Origin: a virus
Virus record (IMG/VR): IMGVR_UViG_3300021171_000033
Coordinates: 1-33,865 of that record
Reading direction: 5' to 3' (one strand)
DNA: 33,865 nucleotides
Positions 8,322 through 33,865 of the stretch are shown here, piece by piece. The notes below the pieces were generated by a model. That model was not told the origin of the DNA and did no database searches. It worked only from the letters and a program-made list of their open reading frames with translations. Position 1 is the stretch's first letter, and every line of letters starts with the position of its first letter. Position numbers and translations under genes: made by a program.

Positions 8322-9316
8322 GTGACGAAGGAAGACAGCGGCTCGACGAGCTCGAATCCGTCAAGGGCGACATCAATTCGACCAACAACCAGCGCCAGAT
8401 GAACGCGCGCGAGCGCATCGCCCGCAATGCCGAGTTCCTGGCTGCCAAGGAAGCGGCGGATCAAGGGCTGGAATTCTCTCCAGACGATGGCCCCGCTGAT
8501 GACGACCTATCCGGCGGAGTGTCTGACTCATACGCTGTCACTGACGAGACGCTAAAGAGCGATTTAGCACAGCAACCAAGGCAGCGGGCGGAGCCCGAGA
8601 AGCCCCGCACCTACAAGATCAAGGTTAACGGACAGGAGGTAGACCTGTCCGAAGCAGAACTTATCGAACGCGCCCAGAAAGTGGAGGCGGCCGATAGGTA
8701 CCTGGCAGAGAAGAAACGGGAAGCCGATCTTCTGCTGGCAGAAACCCGCCTGAAGCTCGAGCAGCCATCCGTTACGACGGACGTTGCACCAGAGGTATCC
8801 GATGAGGACCTGGAACTGGTAAGAGCACTGCAGGTTGGTGACGAGTACACCGCCGCTAAGGCACTTAGAGCGCGTCTGGCACGTCAGACGACCACGCAGC
8901 CGGCTATCTCCATGGACGCCGTTGCTGCAAAGGTCAAGGACGATCTAGAGCACGCCAATGCCACAAAGTGGTTTGCTCAGGAATACAAGGATGTCGTTAC
9001 CGATCCAAAGCTCATGATGATCGCCAATCAACTAGACGCGGACTTCCGGAAGATGGATGCGGCAGAGAAGAAACTGACTCCATACATGGACCGCTATCGG
9101 GCTATTGGGGAAGAAGTCAGGAAGTGGAAAGGCACGAATCCTGAGGCAGCCGAAAAGCTGCAACGCAAGAAAGAGACCCTCAAGACTATCCCGCAGGCTT
9201 CCATGAAGTCCGGATCAGTCGTTGAGGACGATGATCAAATGTCAGAAGAGGAATACCACCAGAAGGCTATCCAGGAAACAGCCAGACGGAGGTATCAGAC
9301 TCATCTAGGAGGTTAA
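8318..9316 (+). CDS. capsid scaffolding protein (probable)
   Basis: The product is 332 aa, almost entirely charged and helical, with low hydrophobic content. It has a coiled-coil-like N-terminus (RQRLDELESVKGDINS), an acidic Pro-rich linker (about 50-95), a short beta segment TYKIKVNGQEVDLSEAELI near 104-122 of the kind common in scaffold proteins, then long Lys/Glu/Arg helices (EKKREADLLLAETRLKLEQ). It stands between the portal and the major capsid gene, the classical scaffold position. Scaffolds fill the procapsid and leave before packaging. The assignment rests on composition and position. Confidence 0.7.
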   Translation: MSDEGRQRLDELESVKGDINSTNNQRQMNARERIARNAEFLAAKEAADQGLEFSPDDGPADDDLSGGVSDSYAVTDETLKSDLAQQPRQRAEPEKPRTYKIKVNGQEVDLSEAELIERAQKVEAADRYLAEKKREADLLLAETRLKLEQPSVTTDVAPEVSDEDLELVRALQVGDEYTAAKALRARLARQTTTQPAISMDAVAAKVKDDLEHANATKWFAQEYKDVVTDPKLMMIANQLDADFRKMDAAEKKLTPYMDRYRAIGEEVRKWKGTNPEAAEKLQRKKETLKTIPQASMKSGSVVEDDDQMSEEEYHQKAIQETARRRYQTHLGG

Positions 9317-9319
9317 CTA

Positions 9320-9348
9320 GTGGCTGGTCAGGTTGATATAAAACCTGT
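9320..9348 (+). CDS. major capsid protein, exon 1 (29 bases)
   Basis: GTG 9320 follows AGGAGG by seven bases and opens MAGQVDIKPV. The frame continues only to a stop at 9429, so it cannot be a whole gene. The first 29 bases are taken as the 5' exon of the capsid gene: the 5' splice site is placed after T9348, which forms the U-G pair of the P1 helix (see the intron entry). Joined to position 10139, the junction codon is GTC (Val) and the total length is 966 bases, 321 aa plus stop, in one frame. The splice point is a prediction from pairing and frame. Confidence 0.75.
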
Positions 9349-10138
9349 TGCCATAATTATGGCAGTAGGTTACGCTGCATGTTTACCGAGAGGTGAATAT
9401 GCGCCTAACCAAGGAAGTCCTAACGAGGTTTGAGAGCTATTACCGTCGTGGAAACGAGAACGAATGTTGGCCGTGGCTTGGTTCGAAGCAATCCAGGGGA
9501 TATGGATTCTTCGGACTTCGTGCCAGTGGTGTGTCTAGAAAGACTTATTCGGCGCATCGCTTGGCATGGTCCATCGCAAACAGTCGTGACATTCCAAGCG
9601 GGAAGATGATATGTCACACCTGCGACAATCCATCTTGTGTGAATCCGAAGCACCTGTATCTGGGTACTGGATTCGACAACAACTCGGATACCGTGGTTCG
9701 TGGCAGGGCGAATCGAAAAACGGGAGAGCAATGCTCTTGGGCGAAACTCACGGAGCAGGATGTTCTAGCAATCCTGGAGAGCAAGGAAAAGCAGGTTATT
9801 CTTGCTCGTCGCTACAAAGTCTCTCAGTCTCATATTTCTCACCTGAAATCATGCAAGAGAAAACTCTGGACTCGCGTAAAAGCCTGACGTTAAAACTGCG
9901 TGAATTGCTGGAAACCCCTAACGGATGGTGCCGAGGGCAATCAGCAGCCGAGCCCCGAAAGGGGAAGGTTCAACGACTATCCCGAGAGGGAGTACGGCCC
10001 AGTGGCCGGAAGCGCGCAGCACCTAATGGTGAAGATATAGTCTGGTCTGCATGGAAACATGCAGCAGCACTTCGGTGCGGTCCAAGCCTAACGAGCTTAG
10101 GGCGAACACAAACGATGGGCAGTCTCCACCCTTGGAGG
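9349..10138 (+). ncRNA. group I self-splicing intron in the major capsid gene
   Basis: The core is clear. P7 is GACTAT (9975-9980) with ATAGTC (10037-10042), in the usual context CAACGACTATC and AAGATATAGTC. TGCTG (9906-9910) pairs with CAGCA (9942-9946). CCCC-GAAA-GGGG (9953-9964) fits the P6 region, and 3' hairpins follow: CTGCATG-GAAA-CATGCAG (10047-10064), GCAC-TTCG-GTGC (10067-10078) and CTCCA/TGGAG (10124-10137). P1 spans the 5' junction as a hairpin, 9342-9354 pairing with 9359-9371, with U9348-G9365 as the splice-site wobble. The terminal G is placed at 10138, the only choice just after the last hairpin that keeps the capsid frame. The intron removes about 790 bases and contains the HNH gene at 9399-9887. 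Peripheral helices are not fully assigned. Confidence 0.9.
9399..9887 (+). CDS. intron-encoded HNH homing endonuclease
   Basis: The product is 162 aa from ATG 9399, with GAGAGG just upstream; a GTG two codons earlier is less likely. The N-terminal part has ECWPWLGSKQSRGYGFFG, then AHRLAW, and the catalytic core ICHTCDNPSCVNPKHLYLGT with NNSDTVVRGR. This is the HNH_3 arrangement with a Cys-rich metal-binding core. The C-terminus (AKLTEQDVLAILESKEKQ then ILARRYKVSQSHISHLKS) is a helix-turn-helix for DNA binding. Such enzymes cut intron-less copies of the capsid gene so that the intron is copied in. It lies inside the group I intron. Confidence 0.92.
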   Translation: MRLTKEVLTRFESYYRRGNENECWPWLGSKQSRGYGFFGLRASGVSRKTYSAHRLAWSIANSRDIPSGKMICHTCDNPSCVNPKHLYLGTGFDNNSDTVVRGRANRKTGEQCSWAKLTEQDVLAILESKEKQVILARRYKVSQSHISHLKSCKRKLWTRVKA

Positions 10139-11075
10139 CTTTCTTTACTCGCGGCAACTGAGCAATGTTCTGAGAATGAACGTTCAACCATTGGTGAAAT
10201 TCCGACAATTCGCGGACGTTCGGGACGCCTCTCAGCAGGGGCGAAAGAAGGGCGATACCTTCACTTGGGATGTCATTTCAGACGTCGCTACGCCCGGAGC
10301 AGTGTTGATCGAAACCAACACGATGCCGGAAACAAATCTAACCATTACGCAGGGGACTCTGACGATTACCGAGTACGGAAATTCGATTCCATATTCCGGA
10401 AAACTCGACAATCTATCAAAATTCCCTGTAATCGAGATCATTCAGAAAGGGTTGAAGAACGATGCGGTCAAGACGTTCGATAGAGCGGCCTGGACGCAGT
10501 TCAATCAGACCCTGCTGCGTGCGGCTCCTACTGGCGGTTCGTCTGCCACGGGCGCTATCACGCTGACGACGAATGGTACTGCGACCATCACGAATAACGA
10601 CTTCTATAACAACAGTTATGCGAAGTCGATCGTGGACACCATGAAGGAGCGCAACATCCCGGCCTATATCGGGGATGACTATTACGCTCTGGCATGGCCT
10701 ACGACGCTGCGCACGTTCAAGAACAATTTGGAGACTATCCACCAGTATTCGGATACGGGATTCAAGCTGATCATGAACGGGGAAATCGGGCGCTACGAGA
10801 ATGTTCGTTATGTAGAGCAGACCAACGTAGCAAAGGGCACCGGCACGGACGGTATCACGACCACCGCATGGACTAACGGCAAGTCGGACTGGATCTTCTT
10901 CTTCGGAAACGACACCATTGCGGAAGCCATGGCGATCCCGGAAGAGATGAGAGGAAAGATCCCGACTGACTATGGACGGTCCAAGGGTGTAGCGTGGTAC
11001 TACCTTGGCGGATTCGGCATTGTCCACACACTAGCCATCAATACACGGGTGGTTAAGTGGGACTCGGCGGCATAG
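10139..11075 (+). CDS. major capsid protein, exon 2
   Basis: Reading from 10139 in the frame set by exon 1 gives TTT CTT TAC, that is FLYSRQLSNVLRMNVQPLV, then KFRQFADVRDASQQGRKKGD and VATPGAVLIETNTMPETNLT, followed by TITEYGNSIPYSGKLDNLSK. This order resembles the N4 gp56-type / HK97-fold capsid family, in which an N-terminal arm is followed by a positively charged loop and a long helix (IEIIQKGLKNDAVKTFDRAAW). The C-terminus GIVHTLAINTRVVKW is also typical. An ATG at 10176 would delete the conserved region before it, so the gene is best read as spliced. Position after the scaffold supports the call. Confidence 0.88.
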
Positions 11076-32947: not shown

Positions 32948-33865
32948 TCATGTCTCGGCAACTGGCGCATACTCCTCCGGCGCCTTGAAAAATAGCTGGG
33001 TCGGATCGGACTGCTTGCGCCAGGTCGAAGCCATAGCTGCCAAGCACTGCTTGCCGGCTCGACCGCCGTACGCATCCGGATCGACCGGCAGCACGTAGCG
33101 TTTGACTGTGCCGTCCGGCTCCGGGGTGCTATTGAGCACGTCCAGCAGCACAAGGTCGCCGTCTCGGAAAAGCTTCGCGGTGCGCAGGCCGACCAACGGA
33201 TGCGCATCCGAGCAATGATCGATGAGTTTTAGTTCCGCATCGGTGCAGTAACGATCGTACCCGTAGCGCTCGATCAGCACGCGTCGCACTTCGGCGTTCG
33301 ATTCCTGCTTGATCGACTCGACCGTGAGCGTTTCCGGATGCTCTATCACGGATGGATCGACTGCGACGCCGTGCCAGTGGCAAAGCGCCCAACCATCTCG
33401 GTATGCAATCGACGGGCCGGATTCTGAATGCAGGCGGCCGCGATCGTCTCGGTTAATGATCGCGGGACGATCCGAAAGTGCCAGCACATTCTCGTGCCAC
33501 CAACACCATCCGACGGATTTGGTCAATGCTTCGTCGATTTCGAACTTCGGCAGAGTATCGCCGTTCCATCCGAGCACATCGCGCAGGAAGGAAATGTACG
33601 AGCACCAACCAGACCAGAAAACGCCGCCTCGATAGTTGTAAACGGCTTTTCCGACCTGCGACCAGACCTGCGACACGACCTGTGACCCGACCTGCGACCA
33701 GACCTGCGACACGACCTGTGACCCGACCTGCGACTCGAACTGTGACCGGACCTGTGACCAGACCTGCGACCAGACCTGTGACCAGACCTGCAACTCGACC
33801 TGCGACTCGACCTGCGACCGGACCTGCGACTCGACCTGCGACCAGACCTGCGACCCGACCTGCGA
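32948..33865 (-). CDS. DUF6745-type protein with long SQV tetrapeptide repeat, cut by the window edge
   Basis: The frame is open to the window edge, so the start lies outside. The first 71 visible residues are a tetrapeptide repeat, S-Q-V-x (x is W, G, E, R or V). Residues after it show the DUF6745 pattern: GWCSYISFLRDVLG, VGWCWWHENVLALSDRP, LHSESGPSIAYRDGWALCHW, then NAEVRRVLIERYGYDRY and LDVLNSTPEPDGTVKRYVLP, ending EEYAPVAET. The domain is known from actinobacterial and phage proteins but has no established function. It belongs to the leftward operon with erf and ninB. Confidence 0.8.
   Translation of the reverse strand, partial: SQVGSQVWSQVESQVRSQVESQVELQVWSQVWSQVWSQVRSQFESQVGSQVVSQVWSQVGSQVVSQVWSQVGKAVYNYRGGVFWSGWCSYISFLRDVLGWNGDTLPKFEIDEALTKSVGWCWWHENVLALSDRPAIINRDDRGRLHSESGPSIAYRDGWALCHWHGVAVDPSVIEHPETLTVESIKQESNAEVRRVLIERYGYDRYCTDAELKLIDHCSDAHPLVGLRTAKLFRDGDLVLLDVLNSTPEPDGTVKRYVLPVDPDAYGGRAGKQCLAAMASTWRKQSDPTQLFFKAPEEYAPVAET
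33653..33865 (-). repeat. 12-base tandem repeat coding for SQV-x
   Basis: About 17-18 copies of a 12-base unit close to GACCTGCGACCA (plus strand) run to the window edge. Copies vary mainly at the codon of the fourth residue and at silent positions (tgcgac or tgtgac). The unit encodes Ser-Gln-Val-x, so the repeat stays in frame if copies are gained or lost. It may vary in copy number between isolates. Confidence 0.85.

Follow-up and report, generated by a model that had tools for sequence, protein, structure and literature searches.

A group I intron inserted beside the start codon of a phage major capsid gene and an apparent peptide scar of splicing

How can a virus make its most abundant protein from a gene whose reading frame closes soon after it has opened? 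The window, by which we mean the whole stretch of 33,865 nucleotides analysed here (IMG/VR record IMGVR_UViG_3300021171_000033), contains such a gene; all features below are on its plus strand unless stated otherwise. The capsid start codon is the GTG at 9320, preceded by a Shine-Dalgarno sequence (AGGAGG, 9307–9312), and the frame it opens closes at the TGA at 9431–9433, which is codon 38, just as an earlier note on this DNA had described. The same arrangement precedes the start codon in the closest relative, L001, which is intronless and whose protein is 99.7% identical to that of exon 2. The downstream frame encodes a major capsid protein, matching PHROG 1357 (E 1.6e-19) and, above the cut-off, Phage_capsid_4. 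The window capsid shares 50% identity with the putative major capsid protein of Escherichia phage PTXU04.

In the earlier note the interruption was put down to a group I intron and an HNH gene lying some ten codons into the major capsid gene, and a search with the Rfam group I model was proposed. That search gave a match to RF00028 at 9828–10064 with 86.2 bits (E 7.8e-21; cut-off 50), which is the sole Rfam RNA family match within the window. The catalytic core from P3 to P9 occupies 9895–10064. Its P7 pairing was found exactly where it had been placed, at 9975–9980/10037–10042, and the GAAA and TTCG hairpins are present at 9953–9964 and 10066–10077. Extra hairpins between P7 and P3′ (9981–9990 and 9994–10008) are a feature of subgroup IA, to which we assign the core. 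The HNH homing endonuclease gene does lie between the capsid exons, at 9399–9887 (162 codons and a stop), scoring 34.7 bits against HNH_3 and 28.1 bits against zf-His_Me_endon, in each case more than the cut-off, and with a match to PHROG 1872/59. The core, this gene and the intronless homologues together support the proposed split, and the element is a group I intron of subgroup IA, probably mobile and predicted from its sequence to be self-splicing. Since the gene is otherwise continuous in the intronless homologues, capsid synthesis would have to depend on splicing.

The window is a metagenome-derived virus record, and one might suppose that the intron is dead or the gene broken, with no splicing, and that the capsid protein comes instead from a different gene or from translation that begins internally. 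We regard this as extremely improbable, as the core scores well above cut-off, exon 2 is fully open and encodes a protein nearly identical to that of the intronless sister, the HNH gene is intact, and a second allele, L104, shares the layout. The in-frame Met at 10176 was considered as an alternative start and is not credible; the homologues start upstream of it, at MAGQVW.

Comparison with the intronless relatives placed both edges of the insertion. About 80 close relatives among viral contigs have an uninterrupted gene starting MAGQVWAV(S/N)SLGG(F/Y).YSRQLSN, and relatives in bacterial assemblies and named phages have the same or nearly the same start, so that about 90 intronless relatives start MAGQVW or nearly so. 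Homology to these genes on the 5′ side covers 9320–9333 (GTGGCTGGTCAGGT, encoding MAGQV), the ancestral part of exon 1, and stops after 9333; the intron block entered after base 14 of the capsid gene, at GTCAGGT^ATGG. On the 3′ side, the capsid sequence had been thought to resume at about 10139. But the 24 bases before this position, ATGGGCAGTCTCCACCCTTGGAGG, encode WAVSTLGG, found in the intronless relatives too, and exon 2 therefore starts 24 nt upstream, at A10115, from where it runs (A-TGG-GCA...) to the TAG ending at 11075. The last base of the intron is a terminal G, G10114, and its 3′ end, GAACACAAACG|, is common to related introns, including those of Vibrio phage 1.232.O and DSS3_VP1.

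The position of the 5′ splice site requires a choice between two in-frame U residues with a P1 helix worth considering, U9333 and U9348. Use of U9333 would give a 14-nt exon 1 and an intron at 9334–10114, and would restore the ancestral protein exactly (MAGQVWAV), with a U-A pair at the splice site. Use of U9348 would give a 29-nt exon 1 and a 766-nt intron at 9349–10114. Here the P1 hairpin (9342–9371) has 7 bp, between AACCUGU (9342–9348) and the guide GUAGGUU (9365–9371), with the canonical U.G as U9348.G9365 and an extension at 9349–9354/9359–9364. Exon 1 and exon 2 would then join in frame into 329 codons, including five extra ones, as MAGQV-DIKPV-WAV. Of the two candidates for the 5′ exon, the one of 29 nt proposed earlier is the likelier, but its ancestral part ends after the first 14 nt. 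The other 15 nt (9334–9348, in frame, DIKPV), which separate the insertion point from the U.G splice site 15 nt downstream, are absent from the intronless relatives, have a 12-nt counterpart in L104, and are probably a portable 5′ exon. A third site, U9384 (9 bp, U.G), was rejected because the corresponding frame of L104 stops first. A sigma-70-like match at 9333–9360 was at chance level and was also dismissed.

A scan for intron alleles at the same site found L104, which is complete and has its own HNH gene, and L101, which is partial, its sequence being cut before the 5′ exon. The same codon is interrupted in all three. The L104 intron has 767 nt, against 766 nt in the window. The L104 frame stops at codon 11, so only the equivalents of U9333 and U9348 remain. 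The P1 of the former is weak and bulged, with a U-A pair, while at the site 12 nt downstream P1 has 8 bp, a single bulge and a U.G pair (GGACAUCU/GGAUaGUCU), and the frame is kept (MAGQV-DGHL-WAV). Both complete alleles therefore possess a U.G P1 in frame with no stop before it, and the paired sequences differ. It is this repetition of the helix with changed sequence that makes us prefer the 29-nt exon, and on such sequence comparison U9348 is probably the 5′ splice site, with a peptide scar left in the capsid.

To our knowledge, a U.G pair at the group I 5′ splice site is near-universal. The comparator introns retain it, and it is native exon sequence that forms the 5′ splice site of the T4 td, nrdB and nrdD introns. 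With the U.G site, the window and L104 introns both begin U|UGC, like the DSS3_VP1 terL and Vibrio phage 1.232.O introns; the U.G helix of DSS3_VP1, GUGGGU/GCCCAC, was read by eye, as our script placed another pairing first. In shuffled sequences, in-frame U.G helices arose in 3.0% of cases for the window and 3.9% for L104 (about 0.1% jointly if independent), and helices of the U9333 type in 12% and 30% of composition shuffles, respectively; these percentages are indicative only, as the helix thresholds were fixed after the observed values had been seen.

An ordinary precise intron using U9333 is the main competitor of this reading, and we consider it unlikely although it deserves to be weighed. 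It restores the conserved protein perfectly, also with a P1 of 5–6 bp, and the 9-nt loop of that helix (CAGGU/ACCUG) resembles the P1 loops of two related capsid introns, L099 and L103, which by hand reading appear to join without a scar. The added codons, moreover, disrupt a spacing conserved in about 90 capsids, and only two complete alleles are known. Against this, the U9333 site requires U-A instead of U.G in both alleles, its equivalent in L104 is bulged and weak, helices of its type are frequent in shuffles, and it leaves the in-frame U.G helix of both alleles unexplained. A search with the exact consensus pattern found no intronless capsid gene with an extra 1–31 nt at the insertion point.

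Both sites might also be used, with overlapping helices that switch between a capsid isoform carrying the insert and one lacking it; initiating ribosomes might control the switch. The two U residues are exactly 15 nt apart and in the same codon phase; the segments 9329–9334, 9342–9348 and 9365–9371 have two possible pairings that exclude each other and are predicted to be almost equal in energy, the outcome varying with the upstream context. There is precedent in the c-di-GMP-controlled shift of 5′ splice site in Clostridium difficile (reviewed in PMC3984707). The alternative helix is poor in L104, however, and such switching, a further and less likely step beyond the use of U9348 alone, seems to us improbable.

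Taken as a whole, the locus is probably best explained by a mobile HNH-carrying intron with a portable 5′ exon and a peptide scar. A subgroup-IA intron, with its HNH gene between P1/P2 and P3, would have been inserted after base 14 of the capsid gene, and the inserted block would bring along the 15 nt upstream of the 5′ splice site. These portable bases, and not ancestral capsid sequence, would pair with the internal guide as P1. GTP would attack after U9348, and ligation at A10115 would produce a capsid of 329 residues with a 5-residue insert. The spliced junction is predicted to read ...CAGGTTGATATAAAACCTGT|ATGGGCAGTC, as opposed to ...CAGGT|ATGGGCAGTC without the scar, and the N-terminal capsid peptide to be AGQVDIKPVWAV rather than AGQVWAV. 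More generally, we lean towards a mobile unit composed of the intron and a portable 5′ exon of a few codons, which by supplying its own P1 partner would splice independently of the target sequence, and whose capsid scar of 4–5 residues could drift in concert with the guide.

Fewer than 30 nt separate the 5′ splice site from the capsid start codon, which puts the site where the footprint of an initiating ribosome ends or slightly outside it. P1 may therefore be unable to form while a ribosome is initiating, and the reverse, and splicing may be in direct competition with capsid translation. Disturbance of splicing by translation across a 5′ splice site is among the reports cited in PMC3984707.

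The HNH gene is intact. The window and L104 proteins are 55% identical, and pN is 0.32 against a pS of 0.82 (saturated), which indicates that the gene is kept by purifying selection. A peptide-pattern search for relatives of the protein found only two loci, at about 40% identity, and no close relative. Its ribosome site (9388–9393) and start codon (9399–9401) are enclosed in a hairpin at 9368–9410 with a predicted energy of −24.4 kcal/mol (z −6.4; none of 200 shuffles was as stable), whose outer stem competes with the P1 guide. The hairpin is likely, on this folding model, to damp HNH translation, and T4 endonuclease genes have comparable hairpins at their ribosome sites (PMC2988022). The L104 HNH gene (from 10167) likewise starts inside a hairpin, which stands in the same position, pairs the GGAGG of the gene and has a different sequence; the hairpin rather than its letters appears to have been kept between the two.

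As for mobility, occupied sites (the window, L101 and L104) and empty ones (L001 and about 90 others) coexist among the relatives. On the capsid tree the three occupied genes fall on separate, well-supported parts, the starred branches force three intron changes, and the sister of the window is intronless. Such a distribution is as expected of a mobile intron. By cleaving intronless relatives at their conserved MAGQVW codons, the endonuclease would spread the block through homing. DNA identity between the window and L001 is 100% at 8976–9100, about 84% around the insertion (9101–10455) and about 95% within exon 2. This dip is possibly a co-conversion tract; the same alignment contains other divergent blocks.

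Introns in phage capsid genes are known. Pope et al. (2013, PMC3706429) used RT-PCR and N-terminal sequencing to demonstrate splicing of an intron in the major capsid gene of mycobacteriophage LittleE, and they cite lactococcal phage Tuc2009 as a further case. Like the window intron, that of LittleE (about 820 bp) carries an endonuclease gene and is absent from close relatives. It differs in that the capsid is HK97-like with a cleaved N-terminal domain, the intron position is interior, the endonuclease, akin to LAGLIDADG enzymes, is encoded by the opposite strand, and the junction is precise, with no added residues (PMC3706429). The window departs from this precedent in its capsid family, in an insertion site next to the start codon and in an apparent peptide scar. 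The T4 td, nrdB and nrdD introns also combine an intron with an endonuclease gene whose ribosome site is sequestered by a hairpin, but they reside in genes of nucleotide metabolism and their endonucleases are of the GIY-YIG or HNH type (review, PMC2988022). The C. difficile c-di-GMP riboswitch intron resembles the window in splicing beside a start codon with alternative 5′ sites possible, but it is a regulatory element with an aptamer in the 5′ leader (review, PMC3984707). No aptamer or leader function was found at the window intron.

Our analysis also showed that Vibrio phage 1.232.O (MG592596; L087) has an unannotated group I intron, at about 2365–2677, close to the 3′ end of its capsid gene. 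The deposited capsid CDS is truncated at this intron, and an HNH gene lies downstream of the second exon. The intron shares with the window the capsid family, the type of intron core and the intron ends (U|UGC... and ...AACACAAAYG|). Unlike the window intron, it lies at the other end of the gene (KGVAW|YYLGGFG), has its HNH gene outside, and forms a canonical P1 with native exon sequence, adding no codons.

A peptide scar as predicted for the window and L104 appears to be new, and no description of such an arrangement was found in the literature searched, which left most subscription papers outside. Group I introns are, as far as we know, generally held to be traceless in the protein. If the 5′ site does lie 12–15 nt past the insertion point, the most abundant virion protein can gain residues from an intron that is spliced, which would suggest how such an intron avoids having to match its target.

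Some further observations were made on related introns and on the window itself. In all five viral contigs matching the P7–P7.2 pattern of the window intron (L099, L100, L101, L102 and L103), the intron lies close to the 5′ end of a major capsid gene; three capsid families are represented, namely P22 coat (L099, L100 and L102), Phage_capsid_3 (L103) and that of the window (L101). Read by hand, L099 has an exon 1 of about 53 nt and L103 one of about 23 nt. This may be an intron lineage specialising in capsid gene starts. A broader core pattern matched introns apparently in other genes, as judged from flanking ORFs rather than annotation, so this type of core is not generally restricted to capsid genes. 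In exon 1 of the L100 capsid gene, the expected start codon reads ACG (ACGGCCAACACATTG). Elsewhere in the window, an ORF on the minus strand (32948–33793) begins with many near-direct repeats of SQVWSQV/SQVGSQV.
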